Shown here: in pieces, positions 4,118 through 43,103 of the stretch
How positions within the stretch are numbered: the stretch's first letter is position 1
Layout of the letters: every line of letters starts with the position of its first letter
From: a virus
Reading direction: 5' to 3' (one strand)
IMG/VR virus record: IMGVR_UViG_3300032284_001121
Location: 1-43,103 of that record
DNA length: 43,103 bases
The notes under the pieces: model-generated
The model's database searches: none
What the model was told of the DNA's origin: nothing
Seen by the model: the letters and a program-made list of their open reading frames with translations, nothing else
Program-made: the position numbers and the translations under genes

Positions 4118-4227
4118 ACGAATCGGGGGCTGTTAAGCCAGCATTCGAGGACGTCAACGCGGGAAGTTTTCTGGCTTTCTATCTCGCCAAGTTGAAGACC
4201 AAATCGAGGCCCCCACCTAACGAGTAA
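4114..4227 (+). other. Protein-like open frame without a start codon between DUF2815 and polB
   Basis: In the -1 frame relative to the DUF2815 gene, an open stretch runs through its stop codon and fills the gap before the polymerase, ending at TAA 4225-4227. It translates as ...SGAVKPAFEDVNAGSFL then AFYLAKLKTKSRPPPNE, which looks like ordinary soluble protein. There is no ATG, GTG or TTG at a sensible place; GGGGG (4125-4129) lies just ahead of a GTT codon. It may be a decayed gene, a frameshift extension of the DUF2815 protein, or chance. Confidence 0.25.
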
Positions 4228-4232
4228 CAGTA

Positions 4233-6074
4233 ATGAGTAATGACTATGTATACGACATCGAGACTTATCCCAACGTGTTCACGCTGGCGGTGGAACACGC
4301 AATCGCACCTTTGCATTGGCTGTTCGAGATCAGCGACCTACGCAATGACAGTCGTGAGATCGTTGCGTTCCTCCAGTACCTTAAGGAAACCAACGCACGC
4401 ATGGTCGGCTTTAACAACCTGGGGTTCGATTATCCGGTGATTCACACCCTCATGCGCATGGGCAAGAGCGATGCGCGCACCCTGTACGACAAAGCGCAGG
4501 CTATCTTTAACTCGCAGGATGAAGACGGCAGCAAGTGGGCTCATCTGGTGAGCCCCAGTGATCGCTACGTCGCCCAGATCGACCTGTTCAAGATCCATCA
4601 CTTTGACAACAAGGCCCGGGCCACCAGCCTCAAGGCGCTCGAGTTCAACATGCGATCGGACAGCATCGAGGATCTGCCCTACAAGCCTGGCACGGTCCTG
4701 ACACCCGAGCAGATCGAGGTGCTCAAGAAGTACAACCACCACGATGTTGCGCAGACGAAGAAATTTATGCACGTCACGTCGGACATGATCAATTTTCGCG
4801 AAAAACTATGCACGTTGTACCCCGGGCGCGACTGGATCAACTACAACGACACCAAGATCGGCAAAGAGTTTTTCACCATGAAGCTCGAGGAGGCTGGTGT
4901 CTCTTGCTACGACTTCGGTCCCAGTGGCCGCACACCTCGGCAGACCAAGCGCCCCACCATCGCGCTCAAAGACGCCATCCTGCCATGGATCGCGTTTCAG
5001 TCACCCGAGTTCACCAGGGTGCTCAACTGGCTCAAGGATCAAGTCATCACGGAGACCAAGGGCGTCTTCACTGATTTGACTGCGAGAATCGACGGTTTTG
5101 AATTTGTATTTGGATTAGGCGGTATTCATGGGTCAGTTGAGAGTGAAGTCATTGAGTCGGACGATGTGTCCGTTATCGTGGACCTTGATGTCAGTTCATA
5201 TTATCCAAACCTGGCAATTGCGAATGGGTTCTACCCTGCCCACCTTGGCCAGACCTTTGTCACCATCTACAAGAGCCTGTACGAGCAGCGCAAGTCATAT
5301 CCCAAGAACAGCGCAGAAAACGCCATGCTGAAGCTGGCGCTCAACGGCGTCTACGGCGACTCGAACAACCAGTTCTCTGTCTTCTACGACCCGTTGTTCA
5401 CCATGAGCATCACGCTCAACGGCCAGTTGTTGCTGTGTGTGCTGGCCGAGGGGCTCATGCACATCGAGGGTCTGCGCATCATCCAGGTCAACACCGACGG
5501 CATGACCGTGCGTGTGCCGCGCGACAAGAAGGCGCTGGTCGATCTGGCCAGGCACGCATGGGAGGATCGCACCGGCCTGCAACTGGAAGAGGCGATCTAC
5601 AAGTCGATGATGATCCGCGACGTGAACAACTACATCGCGGTCAAGGAGGACGGCTCCGTTAAGCGCAAGGGCGCCTACGAGTACAAGATGGGCTGGCATC
5701 AAAACGCCGGTGCACTGGTGGTCGCCAAGGTGACTGAGAAGGTGCTGGTTGAGGATGCCCCGATCCGCGAGACCGTGGAGCAGTGGCCTGACATCATGGA
5801 CTTCATGCTGCGCACCAAGGTCCCGCGCTCAAGCTACCTCCAGTGGGGCGACAAGCAGGCCCAGAACATCTCGCGCTACTACATCGCCAAGGATGGCAAG
5901 CCCTTGCACAAGTGGATGCCGCCGCTGGCCAAGAAGCCCGGCGAGTGGCGCTGCATCGGCGTCGAGAGCGGCTGGAAGGTGCAGGTCTGCAACGACGTCA
6001 AGGACGCCACGCTGCCTGTGGACTACGACTACTACGTGAGGGAGGTGGAGAAACTCTGCCTCGGACTAGCATGA
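4233..6074 (+). CDS. Family B DNA polymerase with 3'-5' exonuclease domain
   Basis: 613 aa. The N-terminal proofreading domain has Exo I YDIETYP (D8, E10), Exo II FNNLGFD (D66) and Exo III YNHHDVAQT (D171). The polymerase domain has motif A DLDVSSYYP (D319), motif B KLALNGVYG (367-375) and motif C, which reads QVNTDGM (D422) instead of the usual YGDTDS. It is short for PolB and compact like other phage polymerases. It should be the replicative polymerase working with the prim-pol/DUF3987 protein and the DUF2815 protein. I see no protein-priming insertion that I can identify. The start is ATG 4233 with only a weak GAG upstream; the end overlaps the next gene by ATGA. Confidence 0.92.
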   Translation: MSNDYVYDIETYPNVFTLAVEHAIAPLHWLFEISDLRNDSREIVAFLQYLKETNARMVGFNNLGFDYPVIHTLMRMGKSDARTLYDKAQAIFNSQDEDGSKWAHLVSPSDRYVAQIDLFKIHHFDNKARATSLKALEFNMRSDSIEDLPYKPGTVLTPEQIEVLKKYNHHDVAQTKKFMHVTSDMINFREKLCTLYPGRDWINYNDTKIGKEFFTMKLEEAGVSCYDFGPSGRTPRQTKRPTIALKDAILPWIAFQSPEFTRVLNWLKDQVITETKGVFTDLTARIDGFEFVFGLGGIHGSVESEVIESDDVSVIVDLDVSSYYPNLAIANGFYPAHLGQTFVTIYKSLYEQRKSYPKNSAENAMLKLALNGVYGDSNNQFSVFYDPLFTMSITLNGQLLLCVLAEGLMHIEGLRIIQVNTDGMTVRVPRDKKALVDLARHAWEDRTGLQLEEAIYKSMMIRDVNNYIAVKEDGSVKRKGAYEYKMGWHQNAGALVVAKVTEKVLVEDAPIRETVEQWPDIMDFMLRTKVPRSSYLQWGDKQAQNISRYYIAKDGKPLHKWMPPLAKKPGEWRCIGVESGWKVQVCNDVKDATLPVDYDYYVREVEKLCLGLA

Positions 6075-12607: not shown

Positions 12608-13642
12608 TTATGAAACTGTTACTGTTCCGTTAGATGCGGAAAAGAAATAATATTGGATTGTGCCGCCAAAACTAGCGTTAGCGTTGGTAACGGTAAATGT
12701 AAAGTTGTTTGAATTTTTAGTGACTGCGGAAATAACAAACGTAACGCTGCTGGTGTACGAGTTTGTCGTTAAAACACTATAAGTAGAACCAACAACCATA
12801 GAACCGTTTACATCATAGTTAACGCCCCAAAACGCGCCGTTGTTGTCCAAATCGCCGCCAAATCCAATTCGCAATGCGTTTGGGGTTCCAGAGACAGCAA
12901 CCGTGATTGTTTTGGTTTGTAAAGCGTTAATTCGCAAAGTCCCACCGCCGACATATGCGCCGTTAACGGATAGCCCTGTAATCGCGCCAGTAGCTTTTAT
13001 GCCGCCCGAACCGCTAGGTGAACTTGTAGTGCCAACCAACAAATTTCCGCTGGTGTCAATGTTGGCCTGCGTAGTGCTACCGTTTGTGCCCAAACCGAGG
13101 TTAATTGCGCTGCCGGTGGTAATGCCTTGACCAGCAGTGCCTTGGACTAAATTGGAATGCGAAAAAGTGATGTTTGAATAAGTAACATTGAGGGTTAAAT
13201 ATCCACCATTCAATATTTGAAACGGAAGCCCAATGTCTTGCGTATCAAACTGAACTCCGCCGCCGTTGTTGTATATGTAGCCTCTTGCAGTTGTTCCAGC
13301 GGCATCAAAAAACTTCAGCATATATCCTGAAGAATTGATTGTCCCCAAAGTAAAAACGCCTGTGCTTGGGGTTGTGGAGCCTATCGCGCCAGGCGATGCA
13401 AAAGTAGCACCATTCAAACTGCTGGCGTTTAGGTTAGCTACGTTGGTTGTTGATGCAACAGTAAACGGCGCTGTGCCTGTGGCTTGTGTTGACTGAAACG
13501 TCAGACCACTAACAGCACGGCCTGCGGTCAAGTTAGCCACCGACACTTGTTTAGTCGTGCTGCTTTGAACAACAGGCAATGTTTCCGTACCCGCCAGCGG
13601 CGTGGTAGCGGAAGTTAGTGCTGATATTTTGCTGTTAGCCAT
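12608..13642 (-). CDS. Tail fibre-like structural protein
   Basis: 344 aa, rich in Ser, Thr, Gly and Asn. The N-terminus MANSKISALTSATTPLAGTE and VVQSSTTKQVSVANLTAG is a common opening of phage fibre proteins. Repeated short beta motifs follow (TGSAINLGLGTNGSTTQAN, GNLLVGTT). There is no chaperone-type C-terminal peptidase motif that I can see. It lies between two spike genes and overlaps the upstream one by TAATG, so the receptor-binding proteins are made from one transcript. Confidence 0.7.
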   Translation of the reverse strand: MANSKISALTSATTPLAGTETLPVVQSSTTKQVSVANLTAGRAVSGLTFQSTQATGTAPFTVASTTNVANLNASSLNGATFASPGAIGSTTPSTGVFTLGTINSSGYMLKFFDAAGTTARGYIYNNGGGVQFDTQDIGLPFQILNGGYLTLNVTYSNITFSHSNLVQGTAGQGITTGSAINLGLGTNGSTTQANIDTSGNLLVGTTSSPSGSGGIKATGAITGLSVNGAYVGGGTLRINALQTKTITVAVSGTPNALRIGFGGDLDNNGAFWGVNYDVNGSMVVGSTYSVLTTNSYTSSVTFVISAVTKNSNNFTFTVTNANASFGGTIQYYFFSASNGTVTVS

Positions 13643-15168
13643 TAATTAACACTACGGGCTTTTTCAAACCAATAAGCGCCTTTTTTAATTAATGTTAGCG
13701 TGTCATATTGAGTGCCTACAAAAGAAACACCGCCAGATAAAAACGCATTGGCGTTAGTAATAGTAGTATTTCCATTGTCAAAATACAATGTAATTTCTTG
13801 ACCGTCTACACCACCTAAAAAATTTGTAACATTTGTTGCGGAAGAATTTGACAATATAATGTTTTTAGCATTTGAAACATTTGGCGTGGCGCTATTATTT
13901 GTTGCAGTTACCCAAAAACCTTGTTGTTGACTAACGACAACGCCATAGTAAATACCAGCGTTACTACCAATCGAAGGGCCATTTAAACCAGAACTATAAA
14001 AATTATTACCGACAATATTTCCTGTTGGGTATGTTGTTGGTGATCCTGTTGAAGTAATAGTTATGCCAGAAGTATCCGATGGTGTAATTGTATTAATAAT
14101 ACAACTGTTGCCAATAAAAATATTGTTGCTACTATTAACACAATAAATATGTGTTGAACTAGCATCAACAATCATGTTGTTGCTAATTACGTTTTGATTT
14201 GGGTAAGAATTGATAGGCAATCCACCATTTAAATTTATGCCATATGTTCCAGCATAAAAAATAGAATTGTTCGATACAATGTTTCCAACAGTGTTTACAT
14301 CTAATCCAATTCCTGTCCCTGCACAACTTCTAATAACGTTTCCATCAATTACACAACCAGTCACAGGTTGGTAAGCTGCTGTGTTATACAAAGCAATTGC
14401 TTCAAGTCCGTTGCTTAAAGAATTGTTGTTGGTAACTGTGCAGTATTGAGAACCTTGAGGAGAACTGCCAGACAAATAAATATCATGTCTACCAACAGAT
14501 ATAAAAGAATTGCCTGAAATTAATGTACGAGAGCCAATGTTGTAAACGCCATATCCATTTCCGCTTGTTGAGCCTTTAATGTTTAAAAAAAGATTGTCTA
14601 TAATTTTGCAATCAACGGCGTTTTCATAGTTAATTTTTACTCCTTGATTAAAATCATGGAAATAACAATTTTGAACTAATGATTTTGTAGCTTGAATGTT
14701 AAGAGCAAATTTACCTTCAGTACCTATTGATTGACCTGCAAAACTAAGTCCGTCAAAAGTTAAATCAGTACATGTAGTATCAAAACTCCATGCGTCTATT
14801 ACGGAAGCAACTGCAATTACAGACGCAAATCTATCTCCAATAAAAGAAGAATTATTTATGTTGCTAAAAGTTTGACTTGATGTAATTTTGTATGTCCCAG
14901 ATGGAAAATACAAACTTTTTCCACTGGAAGCTAAAATAGCGGCTCTAACTGCCGCTGTGTCATCTGTCGTTCCATCGCCCGTAGCGCCAAAATCCATCAC
15001 ACTAACAGTCTGACGCAACTTAGCTTGCACCGTGGTTGCCACAGCGCCAGTGCCAGCGGGTTGGTAAGTGACGTTTGCAGCACTTGTGCCGTTGTACACA
15101 GCGTTATTCACATCATTCAGCCACGATGCTGGAATGATTGTGCCGCTTTGGAAATTGATTGAACTCAT
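13642..15168 (-). CDS. Tail spike, Pectate_lyase_3 type beta-helix, AT-rich body
   Basis: 508 aa from ATG 15168 (ATGA overlap with the gene upstream). The N-terminal anchor FQSGTIIPASWLNDVNN is followed by VMDFGATGDGTTDDTAAVRAA, the opening of the Pectate_lyase_3 beta-helix, then many Asn/Ile-rich coils (such as SNNSIFYAGTYGINLNGG). Base composition is striking: from about 14,980 down to 13,670 the gene is roughly one third G+C by eye, while its first ~180 bases match the GC-rich neighbours. That indicates replacement of the receptor-binding body by transfer with retention of the anchor. Probably a capsule- or LPS-recognising spike. Confidence 0.83.
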   Translation of the reverse strand: MSSINFQSGTIIPASWLNDVNNAVYNGTSAANVTYQPAGTGAVATTVQAKLRQTVSVMDFGATGDGTTDDTAAVRAAILASSGKSLYFPSGTYKITSSQTFSNINNSSFIGDRFASVIAVASVIDAWSFDTTCTDLTFDGLSFAGQSIGTEGKFALNIQATKSLVQNCYFHDFNQGVKINYENAVDCKIIDNLFLNIKGSTSGNGYGVYNIGSRTLISGNSFISVGRHDIYLSGSSPQGSQYCTVTNNNSLSNGLEAIALYNTAAYQPVTGCVIDGNVIRSCAGTGIGLDVNTVGNIVSNNSIFYAGTYGINLNGGLPINSYPNQNVISNNMIVDASSTHIYCVNSSNNIFIGNSCIINTITPSDTSGITITSTGSPTTYPTGNIVGNNFYSSGLNGPSIGSNAGIYYGVVVSQQQGFWVTATNNSATPNVSNAKNIILSNSSATNVTNFLGGVDGQEITLYFDNGNTTITNANAFLSGGVSFVGTQYDTLTLIKKGAYWFEKARSVN

Positions 15169-15584
15169 GGGTAGTATCCTACTGTTGCGCAGTCCGCAGA
15201 ACCGAAGTCTGCCGTAGACCAAGCGCCTTGTAAAGAGCAGAACGATGGGTAAGTACCCTGCGCTCCAGGAACATAGTAAAACGGCTTGTTGGGGATCATA
15301 CAGCCTGGTATCGCAAGGCCGGGCATGGCCGAAACACCCTGCATCGTGCACACCAGCACGAACGCATCGCTGTCAGGCTGAGTCCAGGATGGCGTTTGAA
15401 CGTCTTGCACACCTCGAACAAAATCTTGAGGCTGTCGCTCTTCCCAGTGCTCTGGGCAGACATAGTAGCCTTCCCAGTGGCGCATGAGCATACCGGCTTT
15501 GCGCTTGCGGCCACACTCGTAACAGACAGCGTTGTAACCACCTGATTCGTAGTAGTCGGCGCGGCCGCGTCCTGGGTTTGCCAT
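15165..15584 (-). CDS. Conserved zinc-ribbon phage protein in tail module
   Basis: 139 aa. The first 60 residues contain CYECGRKRKAGMLMRHWEG and YVCPEHWEERQPQDFVRG, i.e. C-x2-C ... C-x2-H, a zinc ribbon that recurs in small phage proteins near tail or lysis genes. The C-terminal half is a different, Cys- and Gly-rich stretch (CTMQGVSAMPGLAIPGCMIP ... FCSLQGAWSTADFGSADCAT) that may be a beta-structured module. Role unknown; it precedes the beta-helix spike and overlaps its start by 4 nt. Confidence 0.7.
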   Translation of the reverse strand: MANPGRGRADYYESGGYNAVCYECGRKRKAGMLMRHWEGYYVCPEHWEERQPQDFVRGVQDVQTPSWTQPDSDAFVLVCTMQGVSAMPGLAIPGCMIPNKPFYYVPGAQGTYPSFCSLQGAWSTADFGSADCATVGYYP

Positions 15585-36285: not shown

Positions 36286-36462
36286 TCAAGCTCCAGCCAT
36301 ACGGGCACGTTGACGAACAGGCTCGGCTTCAGTGGGTTCAAACTGTTCCTTCATGGGATTGACACCCATCAAGTTGCGATCTTTGAACTGCATCGGCGCC
36401 TTGGGTGTGTGGGCGAACTTAGTCCCCACGGGAACCATTGATTTCTTTTGCGTGTGCTTCAT
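36286..36462 (-). CDS. Small basic hypothetical protein
   Basis: 58 aa, beginning MKHTQKKSMVPVGTKFAHTP and ending in PVRQRARMAGA. A clear AAGGAG lies 6 nt before ATG 36462. It overlaps the 3' end of terS by 44 nt in another frame and is followed by the next start after 2 nt. The overlap and strong ribosome site suggest a real gene. It is rich in Lys, Arg, Met and Pro and has no recognised family. Confidence 0.65.
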   Translation of the reverse strand: MKHTQKKSMVPVGTKFAHTPKAPMQFKDRNLMGVNPMKEQFEPTEAEPVRQRARMAGA

Positions 36463-37042
36463 AAACTTCTCCTTGAGAGGTTGTTCGTGGTCGTAGCGCC
36501 ACGAGTCGCTTGGCCAGATTATCTAGGTGATTGCTCTCGATGACAACTGTAGCCGCTTTTACCTGGCCCATGCCCATCGCTTTACTGGTCAACTCCAGCG
36601 CTCTCAGGGCCAAAGTGTCCGATACCTGATCCGCATTTTTACTCAGCTTCTCGTGAATCACATCGAGCGATCGATTGACGACTGCTTGCAGCCGCTCTTC
36701 CGTTGAAGCAATGATGATGGGATTGATGACCTCGTCACGCCTCTTCTCCAGGTGGCGCTTAAAGGCCACGCTGTTGATGATCATGTTGGTCCAGCTCGCG
36801 CTGACTCCGTACTGCTCACCGAGTTCAGCCATGGTGATGTCGGGTCTGGCAAGGACAGTGTCAGCCATCGCCCGATGGACGTTGGTGAGAACCTTGGGAC
36901 CCTTGGGAGGGACTGGCGCAATCTGCCTGAGCGGCATCTCGAGATCCAGGTCCGGTACGAGTGGTGTTGGCCGATTGGTGTTCGGCGTGGCCAAAAAGTC
37001 CGGTAGGTCCGTGGTCGACTGATTAACTTGGGTGTCTTCCAT
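36419..37042 (-). CDS. terS: Terminase small subunit-like protein
   Basis: 207 aa from ATG 37042. A Pro-rich N-terminus (TPNTNRPTPLVPDLDLEMPL) is followed by a helix-turn-helix (about 75-105: TMAELGEQYGVSASWTNMII) and a long helical region, the layout of small terminases that bind DNA and oligomerise. Its place at the head of the late block, before terL and portal, agrees. There is no ribosome site before the ATG, and the predicted transcription start falls at about the A of the ATG, so the first product of this transcript may be translated from a leaderless end. A longer start at 37117 would lie upstream of that promoter. Confidence 0.78.
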   Translation of the reverse strand: MEDTQVNQSTTDLPDFLATPNTNRPTPLVPDLDLEMPLRQIAPVPPKGPKVLTNVHRAMADTVLARPDITMAELGEQYGVSASWTNMIINSVAFKRHLEKRRDEVINPIIIASTEERLQAVVNRSLDVIHEKLSKNADQVSDTLALRALELTSKAMGMGQVKAATVVIESNHLDNLAKRLVALRPRTTSQGEVYEAHAKEINGSRGD

Positions 37043-37049
37043 GTGGCGC

Positions 37050-37078
37050 AGTATACGGTGTGTCAATGTGACTGGCAA
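37050..37078 (-). promoter_or_regulatory. Leftward late promoter
   Basis: On the leftward strand, TTGCCA (37078-37073) and TATACT (37055-37050) are separated by exactly 17 nt; each matches the sigma70 consensus at five of six positions. Transcription would begin about 6-8 nt past the -10, at roughly 37042-37044, i.e. at the terS ATG. A second TTGACA-like box within the spacer is too close to the -10 to serve with it. Confidence 0.7.
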
Positions 37079-37248
37079 GCAGTAAGGGAATTGGGGGGTA
37101 GGGGGTTCTGTGATCACGGTCTAAATTTTTCAAAAAAATGCGCGGATGCCATATGAATATTTTTGGATAGGAAAAATTTTCCCCCCGGCCCCGGGAAAAC
37201 CGGCCCCGGCGCGGCCAGGTCCCCGGTCAATCAGTCACACCGGCCACC

Positions 37249-37268
37249 GGGATCCCCTGGCCACACCG
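37249..37268. repeat. 20-bp dispersed repeat, copy 1
   Basis: GGGATCCCCTGGCCACACCG occurs here and again, identical, at 38581-38600, 1.3 kb away. The second copy includes the right part of a perfect 20-bp palindrome; the first sits inside the CCGG-rich island. Confidence 0.85.
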
Positions 37269-37327
37269 GACCCCGGCCAGGTCCCCAGGCTTTGGGATCA
37301 ATGTGGCACGGATCAACCCGGGCCCGT

Positions 37328-37345
37328 GTGGCCAGGTATCCCGGC
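37328..37345. repeat. 18-bp word shared with a coding sequence (copy 1)
   Basis: GTGGCCAGGTATCCCGGC is identical to 39771-39788, which lies within a coding sequence. The word therefore recurs independent of coding status, indicating a DNA-level element. Confidence 0.8.
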
Positions 37346-37480
37346 GCCGGTGTGACACGGTGCAGGCATGGGCCTGGGATCCGGTGTGGCCATGGATACC
37401 GGCGCCGGCATTGTATGGATACGGCATGGCCAGGCCATGGGGATCCGGCTGCAGGGAATCACACGTATCCCGGACCCCGG

Positions 37481-37512
37481 TCGACTTAACATAATATCGA
37501 CTTAACATAATA
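37481..37512. repeat. Perfect 16-bp tandem repeat, two copies
   Basis: TCGACTTAACATAATA is present twice without spacing (37481-37496 and 37497-37512). It is AT-rich and lies at the edge of the very GC-rich island, so it is a candidate DNA-unwinding element or binding site in an origin or operator region. Confidence 0.85.
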
Positions 37513-37574
37513 TGTTGCAGGCCTTGATCACGTAACCCGGTTGACTTGGCCACATTGCAGGCAATCAACCCGAA

Positions 37575-37720
37575 GTGACACAATGGCCACTACTGTGACA
37601 AATGGTTCTAAGGTGACAGAGCTCTACATAGGCGTTTTGACATCTTATTATTATTAGTGCATAATCACTTCTGTAATTTTCATTTACTTAGTCCCCAGTC
37701 ACCTAGGCCATTTGTCACAG
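37575..37720. promoter_or_regulatory. Operator cluster with 13-bp perfect inverted repeat
   Basis: CTGTGACAAATGG (37593-37605) and its exact reverse complement CCATTTGTCACAG (37708-37720) flank the rightward early promoter. Related copies are GTGACACAATGG (37575-37586), GTGACAGA (37613-37620) and, reversed, GTCACCT (37698-37704, matching AGGTGAC at 37611-37617). Three half-sites upstream and two downstream of a promoter, in opposite orientation, suggest repression by looping. The right arm extends to just before the HNH start. The protein that binds is unknown. Confidence 0.65.
37637..37665 (+). promoter_or_regulatory. Strong rightward early promoter
   Basis: TTGACA (37637-37642, six of six) and CATAAT (37660-37665, five of six) with a 17-nt spacer. 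The predicted start is near 37672, giving a leader of about 58 nt ahead of the HNH gene at 37730 and about 16 downstream genes. Nearly consensus, so likely used early by unmodified host polymerase, and controlled by the flanking repeats. Confidence 0.82.
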
Positions 37721-37729
37721 GATCACACC

Positions 37730-38293
37730 ATGAAATCACTCGATAGCGCCACTGCAGCCCGTGCAGCTCAATTTTTCCACTACGATCAAAGCGCCGGAAA
37801 ATTTTATTTAACGGCCAGGGATAACACCGGTCAACAATTCATCACAGGAACCGAAGCCGGGTTAGTCACCCCTGTGGGTGTTCGGCTTACATTTGAACGT
37901 CAATACATCGCAGCGCATCACTTGGCCTGGTTCCTGGTGCACGGTGCATGGCCGACTCATAAAGTCAGTCACTTGAATGGCGACAAAACCGATAACCGGC
38001 CGGCTAACCTGGCCAGCCCGTTAAGCCTGCAGGACCATGCTCAGGCCAGGACTACAGTCAAAGCCCGTAGCGCTGCAGTGGCCGTGAATTTTCTCGAGTC
38101 CATAGGGGTGACACAGGAACAATTGCAGGACCATGCTCTGCAGGTTATCCGCGATAACCAGGGTGAAGCCCGGTACATCGATGCACTGTTAGTGTATGGC
38201 CGTATAGATAAGGACACTCACCGGACCATGCTCGAGAATGTCAAAGCGAACAAGCGGAAACAGGTAACCCAGCGGGTTAGGGTAAACACCTAG
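37730..38293 (+). CDS. HNH endonuclease
   Basis: 187 aa from ATG 37730 (AGGA about 9 nt upstream); an in-frame TTG at 37712 is a poorer alternative. The motif AHHLAWFLVHGAWPTHKVSH then LNGDKTDNRPANL (about 62-97) is that of HNH_3-type homing-like endonucleases. The C-terminal half is helical without a clear AP2 or NUMOD domain. As the first gene of the early operon it may be a free-standing homing endonuclease, or a nuclease acting on host or competitor DNA. The end of the gene contains one copy of the palindrome TAACCCAGCGGGTTA (38265-38279), so it is also part of the control region of the next gene. Confidence 0.85.
   Translation: MKSLDSATAARAAQFFHYDQSAGKFYLTARDNTGQQFITGTEAGLVTPVGVRLTFERQYIAAHHLAWFLVHGAWPTHKVSHLNGDKTDNRPANLASPLSLQDHAQARTTVKARSAAVAVNFLESIGVTQEQLQDHALQVIRDNQGEARYIDALLVYGRIDKDTHRTMLENVKANKRKQVTQRVRVNT
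38265..38279. promoter_or_regulatory. Palindromic operator candidate, copy 1 (inside the HNH gene)
   Basis: TAACCC-AGC-GGGTTA is a 6-bp inverted repeat with a 3-nt centre, identical over all 15 bases to the copy at 38313-38327. Centres are 48 bp apart (about 4.5 helical turns). Its place inside the coding 3' end of the HNH gene is compatible with an auxiliary operator. Confidence 0.6.
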
Positions 38294-38303
38294 AAAATAA
38301 TTG

Positions 38304-38331
38304 TTGACGTGATAACCCAGCGGGTTACAAT
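38304..38331 (+). promoter_or_regulatory. Promoter with embedded palindromic operator
   Basis: TTGACG (38304-38309) and TACAAT (38326-38331), 16-nt spacer, each five of six to consensus. The palindrome TAACCCAGCGGGTTA (38313-38327) fills the spacer and touches the -10, a classic place for a repressor that blocks polymerase. It would drive the 38378 gene and those after it. Confidence 0.68.
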
Positions 38332-38377
38332 GCATGCACGGTCAACGATTCGACCGGTAACAGTAAGAGGTAACCCA

Positions 38378-38566
38378 ATGACTAAATCCGAAATTCGCGA
38401 AGTGCAAAAAATTAAACAGTATCACGCTGCAGGCCTGGGCATTGACTTTGTCGCACGTGCTCTCTCATCCCTGATTCGCTCTGCCCGTAATAACCGAAGC
38501 AAGATCGAATTGTCCCGGATCGCTGCAGATCTCGAGTGCCAGCGTCACCCTGAATTCATTTGCTAA
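38378..38566 (+). CDS. Small hypothetical protein
   Basis: 62 aa from ATG 38378, set by AAGAGG 7 nt upstream; an upstream in-frame GTG at 38309 would start inside the promoter. The sequence is helical (SEIREVQKIKQYHAAGLGID, FVARALSSLIRSARNNRSKI) and ends in a His/Cys pair (CQRHPEFIC). It is the first gene after the operator-controlled promoter. No family recognised; similar helical small proteins often act on host proteins. Confidence 0.72.
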   Translation: MTKSEIREVQKIKQYHAAGLGIDFVARALSSLIRSARNNRSKIELSRIAADLECQRHPEFIC

Positions 38567-38574
38567 GTCAACCC

Positions 38575-38594
38575 GGCCAGGGGATCCCCTGGCC
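38575..38594. repeat. Perfect 20-bp palindrome
   Basis: GGCCAGGGGATCCCCTGGCC reads the same on both strands without any mismatch. It lies in the gap between the 62-aa and 51-aa genes and has no T-tract, so it is not a typical terminator. Its right part overlaps the 20-bp dispersed repeat at 38581-38600. Could be a protein-binding site or a recombination hotspot. Confidence 0.85.
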
Positions 38595-38600
38595 ACACCG
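38581..38600. repeat. 20-bp dispersed repeat, copy 2
   Basis: Identical to 37249-37268 (GGGATCCCCTGGCCACACCG). Here it overlaps a perfect 20-bp palindrome. Confidence 0.85.
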
Positions 38601-38628
38601 TAACCCCGTAAAAGTAAGAGGTAAACCA

Positions 38629-38784
38629 ATGAAACACAATCAACACAAATTAACCTACATCGACCTCCACCCTGCACCGGTCGACCGGGATCCTCCGGCC
38701 TGGGCAATCTGGCTCGGTGCAGCGCTTACCCTGGCCGGGGTTTACCTGGTGATCATCCTCTCGAGCCTGTGGGGTGCAGCATGA
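38629..38784 (+). CDS. Small single-pass membrane protein
   Basis: 51 aa from ATG 38629, AAGAGG (38616-38621) 7 nt upstream. A polar, His/Asp-rich N-terminus (KHNQHKLTYIDLHPAPVDRD) leads into one hydrophobic helix (about 25-46: AIWLGAALTLAGVYLVIIL). It overlaps the next start by ATGA. Likely in the inner membrane with a short C-terminus; could modulate host envelope functions or superinfection, though that is speculation. Confidence 0.72.
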   Translation: MKHNQHKLTYIDLHPAPVDRDPPAWAIWLGAALTLAGVYLVIILSSLWGAA

Positions 38785-39545
38785 GCAAAACCAAAATCCT
38801 GGGATACATCGCGTATGAGGGTCCATCGATGATCGATGGATCCCCGATTGTGGTTATCGTCAACAAAATCGACGCGGCCAGCAAAAACGACAAAACCGGC
38901 GCCCTGGTGCAGTCGTTCATCATCCGGTCCGATATCGCCCCCATGGCTGCACTACAAACCGGCGCGGATGTATCGGTGTGCGGCCAGTGCATCCACCGGC
39001 CGATCCTGGCCAAGGATACCGGGAAACCTCCGTGCTATGTGCAGGTCGGAAAATCGGTGCAGTCGGTTTATTACGCGTACAAGCGCGGCAGATACGTTAA
39101 GGCCACACCGGCCACAATCGCGCGGGTTATCGCGGGTAAGCGCTTAAGAATCGGCACCTATGGGGATCCCTGGGCTGCACCGGTGGCCACCTGGCAGGAC
39201 CTGGTGCAGTTCGTCGCTGGGCATGCCGGGTATTCGCACCAGTGGCAGGATACCCGATTCGATCACCAGGCCTGGGCCCCGTTAGTTATGGCCAGCGCGG
39301 ATGATATCGACGAAGCTGCCCAGGCTAACCTATACGGCATGCGAGTATTCAGGGTATCGGTCGGGGTCGATCGTCAACCTGGGGAGGTTACCTGCCCGGC
39401 CAGCGCGGAGGGAGGTCGGAAAACCACATGCGCCGATTGCTTATTGTGTGGTGGCACGTCAAAAGTGGCCAGGGATATCGTGATCGCGGACCATGCGGCC
39501 GGCCATGCGCGCCGGGTCATTTCAATTCAACCGGTAAGGGGATAA
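38781..39545 (+). CDS. Conserved phage protein (DUF7227-like) with Cys clusters
   Basis: 254 aa from ATG 38781. KILGYIAYEGPSMIDGSPIV, VCGQCIHRPILA, CYVQVGKSVQSVYYAYKRGR and CPASAEGGRKTTCADCLLCG are hallmarks of a widespread phage protein I recognise as DUF7227-like. Metal-binding is suggested by CxxC (CGQC), the CP...TCADCLLC cluster and a conserved His. It has often been noted near replication genes but I know of no proven function. It overlaps the upstream stop by ATGA. Its DNA is full of CCGG/GGCC words like the noncoding island. Confidence 0.8.
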   Translation: MSKTKILGYIAYEGPSMIDGSPIVVIVNKIDAASKNDKTGALVQSFIIRSDIAPMAALQTGADVSVCGQCIHRPILAKDTGKPPCYVQVGKSVQSVYYAYKRGRYVKATPATIARVIAGKRLRIGTYGDPWAAPVATWQDLVQFVAGHAGYSHQWQDTRFDHQAWAPLVMASADDIDEAAQANLYGMRVFRVSVGVDRQPGEVTCPASAEGGRKTTCADCLLCGGTSKVARDIVIADHAAGHARRVISIQPVRG

Positions 39546-39548
39546 ACC

Positions 39549-39746
39549 ATGCGACAAACCAAAGCCCAGCGCCAGGCCCAGTGGCTCACTGAATTCACGG
39601 ATCAAGTAGTGAGCCGGGTACCGGCTCACAGTGGCCGGATCGAATGGCCTGCAGCCCTGCACTACTATTTCACCGGGTTGACCCCGGCGGAGGGTGCAGC
39701 GCGATACCTGGCCTATAAACCCAATGGTCCGGAGGTCACACAATGA
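39549..39746 (+). CDS. Small hypothetical protein
   Basis: 65 aa with AAGGGG about 6 nt before ATG 39549. Basic start (RQTKAQRQAQWLTEFTDQVV), then an aromatic stretch (RIEWPAALHYYFTGLTPAEG) and AARYLAYKP. Looks like a compact helical protein. Overlaps the next gene by ATGA. No family recognised. Confidence 0.68.
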   Translation: MRQTKAQRQAQWLTEFTDQVVSRVPAHSGRIEWPAALHYYFTGLTPAEGAARYLAYKPNGPEVTQ

Positions 39747-39970
39747 CAATCAAAACCATGGTGGCCAGGTATCCCGGCCGGTGCAGTCAATCAGGTGCAC
39801 GGATCAACCCCGGCGACACGATACTTTATGACACGGCCACGAAGCGGGCCAGGCTGCAGCCCGATTCGGATCGAATCACGTTTATCGGCGAGCACGGGCC
39901 CAGCACGTTCTATCGTAACCGGTCCGGCCGGTGCATCGATGCCCCATGCTGTGGCTGTTGCACCATTTGA
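39743..39970 (+). CDS. Small phage protein with Cys-rich tail
   Basis: 75 aa. The first half, MVARYPGRCSQSGARINPGD then TILYD, is a beta-hairpin motif (GxC...sGxxIxpGDxIxYD) recurrent in phage small proteins and reminiscent of a metal-binding knuckle. It ends CIDAPCCGCC, four or more cysteines that may bind metal. The 18-bp word shared with the noncoding island (39771-39788) encodes residues about 10-15 of this protein. Confidence 0.68.
   Translation: MTIKTMVARYPGRCSQSGARINPGDTILYDTATKRARLQPDSDRITFIGEHGPSTFYRNRSGRCIDAPCCGCCTI
39771..39788. repeat. 18-bp word shared with noncoding island (copy 2)
   Basis: GTGGCCAGGTATCCCGGC, identical to 37328-37345 in the noncoding island but here inside a coding sequence. 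A second shared word, GCACGGATCAACCC, lies just after it (about 39797) and in the island (about 37308). Confidence 0.8.
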
Positions 39971-40129
39971 GCCCCACGCGCGCCCACGCGCGCATTGTGT
40001 AACCCATGGGCGCCCGTACGCGCCCGACGCGTGCCCACGCGCGAGAGGATCCCCATGCACCCAGTTTTCCAGCAGGCCCTACGGCCATTTTCACCACCAC
40101 CACGCGCCCACGCGCATAAGGACTTAACC
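39971..40129 (+). other. ACGCGC-rich spacer
   Basis: 159-bp gap dominated by CCCACGCGC-type words; six ACGCGC within it by eye. An in-frame ATG at 40055 with AGAGG six nt upstream could extend the next gene upstream by 25 residues (HPVFQQALRPFSPPPRAHAH), but the extension is itself made of the repeated word. Otherwise I see no gene here. Confidence 0.6.
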
Positions 40130-40309
40130 ATGCCACTGACAACAGACGAACAAGAGCGCCACGCCTACGCGCGAGGCGATACGCGAGAGGCCGAGCTACT
40201 GGCCAGGATCGACGCCCTGCAGCGCGCCCTAGGCCAGGCCATCGCGGACCTGGACGAGGCGAACCGATCGATCGACGAACTCGAAGAGGTGCTCAATGCA
40301 ACACACTGA
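40130..40309 (+). CDS. Small coiled-coil protein
   Basis: 59 aa from ATG 40130 (AAGGA 7 nt upstream; ATG 40055 is a credible longer alternative giving 84 aa). A single long amphipathic helix: EAELLARIDALQRALGQAIA DLDEANRSIDELEEVL with heptad spacing, so probably a coiled-coil dimer. It overlaps the next gene by 14 nt. Function unknown. Confidence 0.66.
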   Translation: MPLTTDEQERHAYARGDTREAELLARIDALQRALGQAIADLDEANRSIDELEEVLNATH

Positions 40310-40502
40310 ATCCGAGTACATCAACGCCGGCGCCGCCTATGAGCGCGCCGCCACGCCTGACGCCGCACGCGCCCACGCGCAGGGCATCCGCACTATGCTG
40401 GAGGCCGAGCGGCCGGAGGATCAGACCTACGCGCGTCAGATGATCGAGCACGGCCGGGCCGAGGTCCGAGGGGCGCCCCTACGCGCGAGGGCTAAACAAT
40501 GA
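40296..40502 (+). CDS. Small helical hypothetical protein
   Basis: 68 aa, AGAGG about 7 nt before ATG 40296. Helical and Ala/Arg/Glu-rich (YINAGAAYERAATPDAARAH, then ERPEDQTYARQMIEHGRAEV). Several YAR, HAR and RAR tripeptides are direct translations of the ACGCGC word, so the repeat contributes to the protein sequence. It overlaps the next gene by ATGA. No known family. Confidence 0.62.
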   Translation: MQHTESEYINAGAAYERAATPDAARAHAQGIRTMLEAERPEDQTYARQMIEHGRAEVRGAPLRARAKQ

Positions 40503-40651
40503 GCCCGTACGCGCCTACGCGCCCCATGCTGCCCCGTATGCCTGCCCGGTTCGCCCGGTGGCTCACGCCTGGGGAGAATCCCTTCACGGCCGACGCTGAG
40601 CACCTGCACACGTTCGCCCAGCTTGTTCGACTCGCTGAGGTTGACCTATGA
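40499..40651 (+). CDS. Small hypothetical protein
   Basis: 50 aa from ATG 40499, with GAGGG about 7 nt upstream and ATGA overlaps at both ends. A basic Pro-rich start (SPYAPTRPMLPRMPARFARW) is followed by a helix with LTPGENPFTADAEHLHTFAQ. The overlaps and ribosome site argue for a real gene even though it is short. Confidence 0.6.
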   Translation: MSPYAPTRPMLPRMPARFARWLTPGENPFTADAEHLHTFAQLVRLAEVDL

Positions 40652-40983
40652 GCAAGCTGCCAGACTGGATGACCCCCACGCCTACGCGCGCCCCACGCGC
40701 GAGACCCCGGCCCACGCGGGTAACACCTGCGCCCACGCCTACGCGCGAGCTAGACCTGCCCAACATCTTTCAACTGCGTGTGATGACGATACGCAAGCGA
40801 CTGGACCTCAGCGCCGCCGCCATGGCCAGATACCTGGGCGTGCCGGTGTACACCTACAGGAAGTGGGAAGACGGTACGCGCGACCCCAGCGCGTCGGTGG
40901 TACGCCTGCTGGAGGTGCTGCGCCTGATCGACGACCACGCGCCCAAGCTACACAATCAACTGATTCAAGAGGCTAAAAAATGA
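40648..40983 (+). CDS. XRE-family (Cro/CI-type) HTH regulator
   Basis: 111 aa. The N-terminal 35 residues are a Pro/Thr/Arg-rich run (TPTPTRAPRARPRPTRVTPA) encoded by successive ACGCGC-type words and are probably disordered. The rest is a helix-turn-helix (about 45-95): LRVMTIRKRLDLSAAAMARY, LGVPVYTYRKWEDGTRDPSA, VVRLLEVLRLI, matching the XRE pattern with the recognition helix at PVYTYRKWEDG. It is the best candidate in the window for a protein binding TAACCCAGCGGGTTA or the GTGACAAATGG sites. Starts with an ATGA overlap. Confidence 0.8.
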   Translation: MSKLPDWMTPTPTRAPRARPRPTRVTPAPTPTRELDLPNIFQLRVMTIRKRLDLSAAAMARYLGVPVYTYRKWEDGTRDPSASVVRLLEVLRLIDDHAPKLHNQLIQEAKK

Positions 40984-41063
40984 ACGAGATACTTTTGCAA
41001 ATATTCGGCGGACTCATCGGGATCCTGCTCGGTGTGATTATTGTTCTTTGGAGAGACCGATGA
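40980..41063 (+). CDS. 27-aa membrane microprotein
   Basis: MNEILLQIFGGLIGILLGVI and IVLWRDR: one hydrophobic helix with a basic C-terminus. It starts within the regulator stop (ATGA), has AGAGG about 7 nt upstream and ends in ATGA with the next gene. The design suits a single-span inner membrane peptide. Confidence 0.6.
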   Translation: MNEILLQIFGGLIGILLGVIIVLWRDR

Positions 41064-41212
41064 TCGACTTTGACGATGACCCCGAGGCCGAGGACCTACG
41101 CGCGCAAGATCGCTTTGAGGCCAGACGCGCGCTCGCTTTGAGATATAACCCCGACTGCCGGGACCCCGACCACCCTGGATGTGAACACTGTGAAGGAGAA
41201 GATGATGAATGA
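41060..41212 (+). CDS. Small acidic protein with CxxC
   Basis: 50 aa, very acidic (MIDFDDDPEAEDLRAQDRFE) with a C-terminal NPDCRDPDHPGCEHCEGEDD segment: three cysteines and two histidines that may hold one zinc. ATGA overlap upstream; the tail overlaps the next gene by 8 nt. Acidic small proteins of phages often mimic DNA or bind host regulators, but this is only a possibility. Confidence 0.6.
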   Translation: MIDFDDDPEAEDLRAQDRFEARRALALRYNPDCRDPDHPGCEHCEGEDDE

Positions 41213-41405
41213 AAATGAAAGAATGATGGACCTTGCCTTGGCTGAGGCTGAAGCAGAGAATCGCCTGCTACGCGCGCGCAACGAGCGCCTGGAGAAGGTG
41301 GCCGACGCCGCACGCGCCATGATTAGCGCGCTCACGAGCATAGGCGACTATGAGCAGTGGGACAAGGCGCTCACGCGCCTGGAGAAGACACTGGAGGGCG
41401 CGTAA
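41205..41405 (+). CDS. Small coiled-coil protein
   Basis: 66 aa from ATG 41205, 6 nt after AAGGAG (41193-41198); ATG 41202 is too close to that site. A long helix (MNENERMMDLALAEAEAENR LLRARNERLEKVADAARAM) with heptads, then DYEQWDKALTRLEKTLEGA. Resembles small phage proteins of unknown role with a conserved AL..LE...GA end. Its stop overlaps the next start (TAATG). Confidence 0.68.
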   Translation: MNENERMMDLALAEAEAENRLLRARNERLEKVADAARAMISALTSIGDYEQWDKALTRLEKTLEGA

Positions 41406-41473
41406 TGAACAAGGACCAATGGCCAGAAAATGGGTGGCCGTTCCCGCCCTACCCACTGAGGAGTGAAGCATGA
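41405..41473 (+). CDS. Possible 22-aa peptide
   Basis: MNKDQWPENGWPFPPYPLRS EA. ATG 41405 overlaps the upstream stop (TAATG) and the stop overlaps the next start (ATGA), so it would fill the gap exactly, and it is unusually rich in Trp and Pro. No strong ribosome site precedes it; coupling is required. Supported only by its fit. Confidence 0.4.
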   Translation: MNKDQWPENGWPFPPYPLRSEA

Positions 41474-41756: not shown

Positions 41757-41983
41757 CTAAAGACGAAACATTACGCCTTGCATTGGAGGCGCTAAAAACA
41801 ATTGATGAGGCAATGCCATTCCCTGTGGCTAAGTTGGCTCAATCCGCCATCAAAGAAGCCTTGGCACAGCCAGAGCAAGAGCCAATCGGATACCTTTGTG
41901 AAAATGCAACAGGTCACCGATATTTCAGATGGAAAAAGCCACCTAGTGTGTATAACCCCATCGCGCTCTACGCGAAGCCGTAA
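41753..41983 (+). CDS. Small phage protein
   Basis: 76 aa from ATG 41753; GGAG about 9 nt upstream. MTKDETLRLALEALKTIDEA, then AIKEALAQPEQEPIGYLCEN, and PPSVYNPIALYAKP at the end. The QEPxGYL...PLYAxP pattern is common at the ends of short phage proteins whose role is unknown. It is the last gene of the early operon and is followed within a few bases by a terminator. Confidence 0.72.
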   Translation: MTKDETLRLALEALKTIDEAMPFPVAKLAQSAIKEALAQPEQEPIGYLCENATGHRYFRWKKPPSVYNPIALYAKP

Positions 41984-42009
41984 AAAAGGGACCCTGTGGT
42001 CCCTTTTTT
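41982..42009. terminator. Bidirectional terminator
   Basis: GGGACC (41988-41993), loop CTGT, GGTCCC (41998-42003), flanked by A6 on the left and T6 on the right, so it works both ways. It separates the early rightward operon from the convergent prim-pol/DUF3987 gene, whose stop overlaps it. Confidence 0.9.
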
Positions 42010-43103
42010 CATTCTGCCCCGGGTACGCGCTTACGCGCGTGAGGGGCGGCCTTGTAAATCTCGTCCAGTTGCCGCTGCTTGGCCTCCAGCACTGCCTTGC
42101 GATGACCCTTGAACAACTCCATCAACTGAGGATTGATCCCCCACTGCGCGATGTGCTGGTGCTCTTTCGTCCCGTCGTCCATACGCGCGACCCAGGTGCT
42201 TTGCTCCAGCAGCGTCATGGCATTGATGACCATCTGATCGGCCTGCCACGGGCTCACGTGCTCCACCTGACGCCTGGCTGAGCGCTTGATCTCGGACATG
42301 GTCAGCGTGGCCTTGTCGGCGTGCTGGATCACGTAGTCCGCGACCCACGCGTCAAACGAGTTAACGCCGCCCACCTCGCCCAGCGAATACCTGAACGCGG
42401 GGATCACGTACTCTTTGACAATACGGATCACGCGCTCCACAACATCGGGCTGCACCAGCAGATCAAACGGCCGCTCCATGAGGTGCATCACCAGGATCAG
42501 GCGCCCGGTCGTGCCCTCGAGCTTACCAAACGCGGTCATGAACGCCTCGGGGCTGCTCAGGGTGCGCTCATCTCGCTTGGCTGCCTCGTACCAGCGTTGG
42601 AACTCGCGAAACACAGCATGAGCCTCGGTCGAGAGTTTGTAGGTCTGCGCTGGCAGTGCGTACACCAGGCGCAGCATCTGCTCCCACTGTGCCTTGTTGG
42701 TCATGAACTCGGGGATCGGCTCACCCAGGCGCGTTTTGTCGCCGCGCAGGATCGCAGGGATGAACCGCTGGAGCAGGCCATCGGCCGTGAGCGAGCTTAG
42801 GTTGTCTTTGTACACCCGGGGCTGGATGTTGCCGTAGATGCTGATGGCCAGGTTCTCGCAGTGGATCGAGCCACTGCCCACCCGGTCCATGTCATAGGTC
42901 TCTGACTCGTAGGACACCACCCAGGTTGATCGGTCCTCGCCGCTGGTCTTGTCGGTGAGCTTCTTGACCCAGGAGTTCATCTCATCGAGGTAACACAGCA
43001 GGCCCCGTGGCCGCTCGGAAGCATGGCGCACGAGCTTCTGTGATGTGATGTCCGAGACCGTGATCTTCAGGGGCGCAGGCTTCTCGGGCAGATCGTGCAC
43101 CAC
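42009..43103 (-). CDS. Prim-pol/DUF3987 primase-helicase, C-terminal part; 5' end at 1383..1
   Basis: The rest of the primase-helicase that enters from the left end of the window across the join (364 aa here, residues 455-818 of about 818). It contains the DUF3987 Walker B-like motif LLCYLDEMNSW (D494, E495 of the whole protein), followed by SIHCENLAISIYGNIQPRV, RFIPAILRGDKT (a possible arginine region) and a C-terminal winged-helix-like region (about 725-775: NSFDAWVADYVIQHADKATL). The last residues are basic (HARKRVPGAE). The apparent GTG start at the window edge is an artefact of the cut. Confidence 0.88.
   Translation of the reverse strand: MVHDLPEKPAPLKITVSDITSQKLVRHASERPRGLLCYLDEMNSWVKKLTDKTSGEDRSTWVVSYESETYDMDRVGSGSIHCENLAISIYGNIQPRVYKDNLSSLTADGLLQRFIPAILRGDKTRLGEPIPEFMTNKAQWEQMLRLVYALPAQTYKLSTEAHAVFREFQRWYEAAKRDERTLSSPEAFMTAFGKLEGTTGRLILVMHLMERPFDLLVQPDVVERVIRIVKEYVIPAFRYSLGEVGGVNSFDAWVADYVIQHADKATLTMSEIKRSARRQVEHVSPWQADQMVINAMTLLEQSTWVARMDDGTKEHQHIAQWGINPQLMELFKGHRKAVLEAKQRQLDEIYKAAPHARKRVPGAE
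43083..43103. repeat. 21-bp terminal redundancy (copy 2)
   Basis: Identical to bases 1-21; the sequence is circular and one copy should be removed. Confidence 0.9.

Follow-up and report, generated by a model that had tools for sequence, protein, structure and literature searches.

An early module of a phage genome, marked by a phrog_2554 gene, and its counterparts in related phages enrich and preferentially keep contiguous palindromes of 4-8 bp of many kinds, which are purged elsewhere in these genomes. The window (the entire 43,103-nucleotide stretch that was analysed, IMG/VR record IMGVR_UViG_3300032284_001121) holds two early regions, A and B, with distinct DNA vocabularies. That there are two such vocabularies, confined to the early region and separated by a sharp switch, was the original prediction, and the counts bear it out, with the switch falling where the final gene of region A ends in its stop codon, at 39,970. 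The replacement of region A in a sibling phage, the family-wide occurrence of palindrome islands and the directionality of the region B word had escaped the first reading of the sequence. The relevant features are the following.

36422..37042, minus strand: putative terminase small subunit, assigned from its place next to the terminase genes; left anchor of the early region
37043..37729: divergent non-coding gap in which the region A vocabulary starts
37150..39970, plus strand: region A, palindrome-rich exchangeable early module (palindrome observed/expected ratio, codon null, sibling replacement)
37481..37512, plus strand: two tandem copies of TCGACTTAACATAATA
37730..38293, plus strand: HNH endonuclease gene (PF13392 HNH_3, E 2.5e-11; phrog_99, E 3.4e-16)
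38265..38279: TAACCCAGCGGGTTA dyad, candidate operator (relatives carry repeated dyads of this class)
38313..38327: second TAACCCAGCGGGTTA dyad, 5' of the next gene
38378..38566, plus strand: small conserved protein with a homologue in locus L019 (6-bp palindromes 8 vs. 3.3, z 3.1)
38575..38594: 20-bp perfect palindrome GGCCAGGGGATCCCCTGGCC
38629..38784, plus strand: small protein that by inspection has a hydrophobic segment; L019 and the sibling block each carry a homologue
38781..39545, plus strand: phrog_2554/DUF7227-like gene, module marker (phrog_2554, E 2e-62)
39549..39746, plus strand: small protein (6-bp palindromes 4 vs. 3.9, not enriched)
39743..39970, plus strand: small cysteine-containing protein (VARYPGRCSQSG...), last gene of region A; homologue adjoins phrog_2554 in locus L130
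39971..41405, plus strand: region B, resident module whose gap and genes both carry the directional word CCYACGCGC (word counts, sibling comparison)
40648..40983, plus strand: HTH regulator, MqsA-antitoxin-like, with an N-terminal tail built of region B words (PF01381, E 1.2e-6)
42012..43103, minus strand: helicase-like gene (PF13148 DUF3987; phrog_2373 DNA helicase); right anchor

The left-anchor protein is 77-80% identical in L010-type phages and gave no strong match to any family in family searches; the modelled fold of the phrog_2554 protein (pLDDT 70) matched no PDB entry at E<=0.001. The HTH protein scores just under the cut-off for PF15731 (E 1.9e-6; 28.5 bits, cut-off 30), and a similar gene is present in most relatives covering that region.

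In region A, CCGG occurs 57 times (20.4/kb, against 4.2/kb in 1-37 kb) and GGCC reaches 19.0/kb (6.2/kb in 1-37 kb); GGATCC is found 7 times vs. once in 37 kb, TGGCCAG 10 vs. 16 times in 37 kb, and CTGCAG 9 times vs. none in 1-37 kb. These words, all but the last singled out by the original prediction, are enriched but do not form a fixed set: the vocabulary that saturates region A (37.15-39.97 kb) consists of many palindromes (TGGCCA, CTGCAG, GGATCC, ACCGGT, CTCGAG, AGCGCT, ATCGAT) and words overlapping them, and the excess is common to many palindromes with no single dominant word. The proposed codon-preserving comparison (500 synonymous shuffles, with a late-codon null run as well) sustains the claim of enrichment, since in the genes of region A there are 14 copies of CTGGCC against 3.1 in the codon null, 8 of CTGCAG against 1.7, and 70 palindromes of 6 bp against 39.6 (0/500 shuffles; z 5.9). 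The late genes show the opposite bias, with 291 such palindromes vs. 386 in synonymous shuffles (z -4.9), and the predicted departure from the usual phage trend is thereby confirmed. Overall, the observed/expected ratio for 6-bp palindromes is 1.99-2.12 in region A and 0.74 in the core, and in sliding windows strong enrichment of 4- and 6-bp palindromes appears only at 37-41 kb, with no comparable density in the late block, as had been anticipated. The excess is present in both coding and non-coding DNA: the gap part of region A (37150-37729) holds 26 palindromes of 6 bp against 11.1 expected, and the tetramer vocabularies of gap and genes correlate (r 0.56 in region A, 0.59 in L010, about 0.1 for gap vs. 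core).

That region A is an exchangeable early module beside the packaging genes is well supported. A sibling phage, 93-97% identical nearby, has an unrelated block over 37337-40296 and is homologous outside it, sharing the gap at 93% identity only up to 37,337; the genes of the sibling block have no palindrome excess (27 vs. 37.3). A DNA search of the region against phage records gave no match.

Region B differs from region A in kind: A has a general excess of contiguous even-length palindromes, and B is non-palindromic, with one asymmetric word, CCYACGCGC, pointing with transcription. ACGCGC occurs 25 times in region B (17.4/kb, vs. 0.54/kb in the late region and 0 in A), including 20 copies in genes against 6.0 in the codon null (0/500 shuffles), and CTACGCGCG occurs 7 times in B and 0 times elsewhere in the comparison counts. 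CCYACGCGC saturates region B (39.97-41.4 kb) at a density absent from the late block; its 13 copies there (as CC[CT]ACGCGC) are all on the plus strand and none on the minus strand, strictly co-oriented with transcription, 9 of them in the gene part and the remainder in the gap, and L010 carries the same word (+15/-0). The palindromic saturation originally proposed for both regions therefore holds for A and fails for B, in which the observed/expected ratio of 6-bp palindromes is 1.02 once CGCGCG/GCGCGC are removed. The sibling is 95-97% identical over 40296-40456 and 40571-41471, and region B is a resident module of the clade; the abrupt switch at 39.97 kb would then be a module edge. The B words most likely serve as a site that a protein or RNA reads in one direction, and they would have multiplied as copies of the word were inserted. 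They resemble the stoperators of cluster A mycobacteriophages, which are likewise iterated, asymmetric and oriented with transcription (PMC9283540); stoperators, however, are 13 bp long, have a known repressor that acts as a monomer and lie in promoters and short intergenic gaps, whereas the B words fill genes.

The phrog_2554 gene is present in at least 80 other viral contigs; 80 viral loci (69-87% amino acid identity) were kept and 66 non-redundant loci analysed. The suggested search for islands in related phages was successful: the island exceeds its own flank in 54/54 testable loci, with values above 1 in 49 islands and in 0 flanks. Across the 66 loci, the observed/expected ratio of 6-bp palindromes is 0.45-0.55 beyond 2 kb and 1.2-1.36 over the marker gene and its neighbours, a shift from avoided (~0.5) to enriched (~1.3) that spans ~3 kb. 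The sign reversal of palindrome bias across genomes with the phrog_2554 module is thus well supported. It is specific to palindromes with spacer 0 (flank 0.51, island 1.27; other spacers ~0.9-1.17), with mirror words at 0.94 in flanks and 0.91 in islands and tandem words at 1.20 and 0.99. Of the 64 palindromes, 84% are commoner in islands. Against synonymous shuffles, the marker gene has a mean z of 4.1 (4 bp) and 2.5 (6 bp), compared with 0.2 and -1.1 for other genes (z 3.8 for the marker gene of the window), and 249 other island ORFs give a ratio of 1.29 (z 13.4). Without dinucleotide-repeat palindromes the islands stand at 1.15, so part of the pooled excess comes from such repeats; simple repeats as the explanation of the islands were rejected, and a high value at 18-20 kb of MW202796 was discarded as an (AT)n run. 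Among Autographiviridae/cluster A isolates with the gene, the gene end gives 0.98, 0.93, 0.79 and 0.55, most other windows ~0.2-0.7; S2B and jiawei show only a slight rise, and the isolate CRP-403 has a raised end. Gordonia phage Anon has the gene and no island, and T7 has no island at its leading end, so a leading-end rule for all T7-like phages was rejected.

Between related phages, palindromes are retained preferentially in islands (+0.032, 95% 0.012-0.053; +0.040 when count-matched) and lost preferentially in flanks (-0.037, -0.069 to -0.014); for pairs 90-99% identical, retention does not differ significantly. Strict compensatory evolution left a weak signal: compensatory change is slightly above control at 4-bp palindromes (+0.043, 95% 0.002-0.085) and not above control at 6-bp ones. 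Hence single sites are not strongly kept, which fits better with selection on density or mutational drive than with fixed sites.

Type II restriction is established in general as the force that purges palindromic sites from phage genomes, and would be so here. The explanation that we prefer, if tentatively, is that each vocabulary belongs to an early-gene module with an inheritance of its own, that phrog_2554-marked modules are palindrome-rich wherever they are found in this phage group, that purging by restriction fails to reach the early module, and that some pressure on the DNA itself favours palindromes there, in the gap as well as in the genes. The likeliest pressure would be a need for numerous short sites of twofold symmetry on which dimeric proteins, such as a regulator or a modification enzyme, act, to which local word copying may have been added, giving each lineage its own vocabulary. 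The repeat spreading originally envisaged finds some support, in repeated 9-mers at 115/kb in islands vs. 44/kb in flanks (38/38 loci) and in an 18-bp segment of the last gene of region A that is identical to the gap. Counting against the preferred explanation are the weak compensation, the over-dispersion of non-palindromic words in islands as well (1.97 vs. 1.28), the island-less Gordonia phage and T7, and the fact that we know of no protein that reads so many palindromes. It is possible, although we consider it somewhat doubtful, that many phages draw a positive benefit from restriction-type palindromes in an early module that is conserved and exchangeable, the sign of selection flipping within a few hundred bases of one genome; if so, proteins reading short palindromes would be put to use by early phage DNA instead of being evaded.

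It is rather unlikely that every word is a site bound by a phage regulator (operator, or silencer- or stoperator-like site) and palindromic by chance. ACCC-N3-GGGT dyads, of which relatives have up to 11 in the early region but no more than 1 downstream, the iteron-like arrays of 9 bp that other lineages carry and the stoperator-like orientation of the B word (PMC9283540) speak for it, as does the conserved MqsA-like HTH gene beside the array: the MqsA operator, AACCT-N3-AGGTT (PMC4894380), is twofold with a 3-bp spacer like the putative phage sites, which differ in reading AACCC-N3-GGGTT. The coding excess, however, spans most of the 64 palindromes rather than one site, region A has only two dyads of this class, both near genes, and the HTH recognition helix is much alike in phages with and without dyads, with no pattern of covariation between dyad and helix. 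The suggestion of protein-binding sites is likely to apply, judging from the dyads and arrays, to part of the non-coding gap of relatives, and is conjectural for the coding part.

Unlikely, too, is a HIP-like drive, in which methylation-dependent or very-short-patch repair of the host makes near-palindromes palindromic and restriction purges all but the early module. A model of this type has been published (PMC4390886) and would account for the excess in gap and genes in all frames, the lineage-specific words and the apparent retention; it leaves the sparing of only 3 kb unexplained, and the window has no match to the C5-, N6/N4-, D12- or Dam-type methyltransferase families (PF00145, PF01555, PF02086, PF05869). 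The proposed comparison with the host was made with Rhodoferax, a possible host, for which contigs from one MAG have no palindrome excess (0.98) and a different spectrum (Spearman 0.33); host-like DNA was rejected on the same grounds. Relaxed selection alone, with palindromes merely unpurged in a young, foreign or differently exposed module, appears quite improbable: the module is swapped and avoidance is weaker in those polA-family early regions that lack the marker gene (~0.8 vs. 0.3-0.45), but islands exceed 1, their synonymous shuffles and the 0.98 of host-like DNA, and palindromes are retained more than matched words. This enrichment above neutral nulls already disfavours it. There is little to commend palindromes as recombination substrates, cut or annealed to drive module exchange so that site-rich modules spread; the module is exchangeable and the phage encodes an exonuclease and a gp2.5-like annealing protein, but 83 homology breakpoints in islands are not palindrome-enriched (0.470 vs. 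0.468 expected), and the idea was rejected. RNA structure or a codon or composition artefact, for which no supporting evidence emerged, can hardly be the cause, as regions A and core fold alike (z -0.6 and -0.5) and the synonymous and late-codon nulls, which reject codon usage and GC, are exceeded.

In textbooks, restriction pressure is recognised by the avoidance of palindromes, usually scored per genome or gene class. The reversal of this avoidance in 54/54 loci indicates that restriction pressure, or its target, is non-uniform along the phage genome, and cautions that a score taken over an entire genome blends signals of opposite sign. Two avoidance studies (PMC6286503, PMC10359461) give values for entire genomes or for classes of genes and do not resolve them by position on a phage genome, and no earlier report of such an island pattern was found in the literature searched. 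As in other phages and plasmids, type II sites are avoided here in flanks and core (observed/expected 0.3-0.75; for 6-bp palindromes 0.5 and 0.74), and region A and the islands reverse the sign. The suggested likeness to HIP1 (GCGATCGC) of cyanobacteria is apt as a resemblance, palindromic words greatly exceeding expectation both inside genes and between them; HIP1, however, is one word, genome-wide in the host and tied to orphan methyltransferases (PMC4390886), whereas region A is a 3-kb phage module with many words and no methyltransferase family found. Subcluster B3 mycobacteriophages likewise have an excess of restriction-type palindromes (GATC/GGATCC, ~4x expectation or more; PMC4841201), but theirs is genome-wide and of one word family, whereas here it is limited to an early module of genomes that otherwise avoid palindromes; these modules offer a small-phage test bed for why some genomes, such as those with HIP1 and the B3 mycobacteriophages, gain iterated palindromes.

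The window is a complete phage map, because a contig of a close relative (L004) that aligns to 41983-43103 continues straight into position 1, with a 21-base overlap, and so crosses the window ends. The genes include those for a terminase, a portal protein, a T7-like ssDNA-annealing protein, an exonuclease and PolA, and the early region is transcribed rightward between two border genes:

36422-37042, minus strand, gene beside the terminase (left border)
42012-43103, minus strand, helicase-like gene (right border)

Within the tail-spike-like gene (13642-15351), GC content falls to 35% at 14001-15000, which suggests recent replacement of the host-recognition part.

The early region had been predicted to be filled with short words, with no comparable density in the late block (1-37 kb), and the counts bear this out. 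In region A (37.15-39.97 kb), CCGG occurs at 20.4 per kb versus 4.2 per kb in the late block, CTGCAG nine times versus none in 37 kb, and GGATCC seven times versus once in 37 kb; against a first-order shuffle, palindrome enrichment is limited to 37-41 kb. In codon-preserving comparisons (500 synonymous shuffles, each protein and its codon usage kept), the words of A and of the adjacent region B (39.97-41.4 kb) exceed the null and the late genes fall below it: the A genes contain 70 six-base palindromes versus 39.6 expected, a value reached in 0 of 500 shuffles, whereas the late genes are depleted (291 versus 386). The palindrome bias is reversed within the genome, and codon use as the cause is excluded or disfavored by these shuffles. 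Resampling with late-gene codon usage gave the same outcome, the words occupy more than one reading frame, and five of six A genes taken singly exceed their own shuffle for 6-bp palindromes. For 3-base arms, the observed/expected ratio (O/E) in A is 2.07 at spacer 0, 1.46 at spacer 2 and about 1 at most other spacers (0.75 at spacer 0 in the core); the excess in A is one of contiguous even-length palindromes. A 20-bp perfect palindrome lies between two A genes. The non-coding gap and the last A gene have one identical 18-mer in common; two segments of this gene recur in the gap in swapped order (18/18 and 17/18 bases):

37328-37345 (gap) and 39761-39778 (last A gene)
37306-37323 (gap) and 39797-39814 (last A gene)

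The predicted abrupt switch of vocabulary falls at 39,970, the stop codon of the last A gene, and A and B differ in kind. ACGCGC reaches 17.4 per kb in B versus 0.54 per kb in the late block, with none in A, and the B genes carry 20 copies versus 6.0 expected (500 synonymous shuffles). The saturation of B is real, but its words are not palindromic in nature, since no excess (1.02) remains in B once CGCGCG/GCGCGC runs are removed. The word is directional: 13 copies of CC[CT]ACGCGC, in gap and genes, lie on the transcribed strand and 0 on the other. Some of the B words make up the N-terminal tail, of low complexity, of an HTH protein (40648-40983, plus strand), which suggests that word copies were inserted.

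The A module is exchangeable. Identity to a sibling phage from the same metagenome (L083, L004/L087) is about 93% next to the module and 95-97% in B. At the equivalent of 37337-40296, this sibling carries unrelated DNA with different small genes. These genes lack palindrome enrichment (27 versus 37.3 expected), so that the enrichment goes with the module and not with map position. At 1480-1570, L004 has a low-complexity repeat, GCTGCTTATGCTGCTTC; it lies in a small gene that the window lacks and encodes alanine-rich sequence. The A genes have matches in other phages, among them the phrog_2554 gene (38781-39545, plus strand; 69-87% identity, 80 kept IMG/VR loci), which in L130 adjoins a homologue of the last A gene.

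Related phages, examined as the original prediction had proposed, contain the same island. In 66 non-redundant loci aligned at the phrog_2554 gene, 6-bp palindrome O/E is about 0.45-0.55 beyond 2 kb on the upstream side and 3 kb on the downstream side of its start, and 1.2-1.36 between -0.4 and +1.6 kb, declining thereafter. The island exceeds its own flank in all 54 testable loci, with O/E above 1 in 49 islands and 0 flanks. The rise is shared by 84% of the 64 six-base palindromes, AT-rich ones included; mirror and tandem words show no sign flip between island and flank. On average, the phrog_2554 gene lies above its own synonymous shuffle with z 4.1 for 4 bp and 2.5 for 6 bp; the corresponding means for 400 other ORFs in these loci are 0.2 and -1.1, and 249 further island ORFs give 1851 versus 1433 (z 13.4). 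Within the window's PolA family, early regions without the phrog_2554 gene show weakened avoidance (about 0.8 versus 0.3-0.45), and those of L010, L114 and L095 are palindrome-enriched. In the early region of L060 (2680-2980), an in-frame repeat encodes GAYLDGAYLAGANLDG..., a pentapeptide-repeat-like protein.

Palindromes are also preferentially retained in islands. Between related phages that share 70-90% identity, and compared with GC-matched non-palindromic 6-mers (bootstrap over loci), palindromic 6-mers remain unchanged at 0.527 versus 0.495 in islands (difference 0.032, 0.012-0.053) and at 0.305 versus 0.342 in flanks (-0.037, -0.069 to -0.014). With local copy number also matched, the island effect stays (0.040, 0.022-0.059) and the flank effect is weaker (-0.022, -0.057 to 0.002); at 90-99% identity the signs agree, short of significance. 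At 4-bp palindromes, compensatory double changes are favored only slightly. This pattern fits density selection or a biased process better than fixed-site selection.

Repeated words of every kind abound in islands (repeated 9-mers at 115 versus 44 per kb in flanks, island higher in 38 of 38 loci). The relatives' non-coding gap holds lineage-specific arrays, either of ACCC-N3-GGGT dyads (an early region has as many as 11, with at most one downstream; two in the window) or of iteron-like words of 9 bp, for example TGTCCACA, TTTGGGTCAT and GTAAGTCAT, the latter varying in sequence by lineage in L142 and L156:

L044 102-700, L019 1658-2250, L111 66-450 and L120 4796-5381 (the last two in window orientation), and others: dyad arrays, early gap
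L142, about 3850-4350, both orientations: iteron-like array (TTTGGGTCAT)
L156, about 4300-4750, both orientations: iteron-like array (TGTGGACAAT)
L010 1390-1420 and 1640-1665, L019 2270-2300 and 2520-2550: leader GTAACCCGTAACCGTAAGGA

This repeated leader lies immediately 5' of start codons in several relatives and resembles the start-associated sequences that some mycobacteriophages have. A conserved MqsA-related HTH gene ends the early block; the MqsA target is AACCT-N3-AGGTT (PMC4894380), and the ACCC-N3-GGGT dyads are candidate operators of the HTH protein.

Under the mechanism that we propose, restriction purging would not reach the early module, a DNA-level pressure with a putative reader would favor short twofold sites there, and local word copying would give every lineage its own dialect. 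Host-like composition is excluded or disfavored by the O/E of 0.98 in contigs of a Rhodoferax MAG, a possible host whose bin also takes in two contigs of these phages (L202 and L203, both carrying phrog_2554); this hints at hosts among the Comamonadaceae. Also excluded or disfavored are RNA structure (RNA-structure test), recombination breakpoints at palindromes (breakpoint analysis), simple repeats and, by a search of the window for four common families, a phage methyltransferase.

The studies of restriction avoidance cited here (PMC6286503, PMC10359461) work at the level of the whole genome or the gene class, and no report of a palindrome-bias reversal inside one genome was found in the open-access literature searched. 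A genome-wide excess of palindromes is known from cyanobacteria as HIP1 (PMC4390886). In B3 mycobacteriophages, too, the excess is genome-wide (PMC4841201), whereas in the window phage the bias reverses within the genome.
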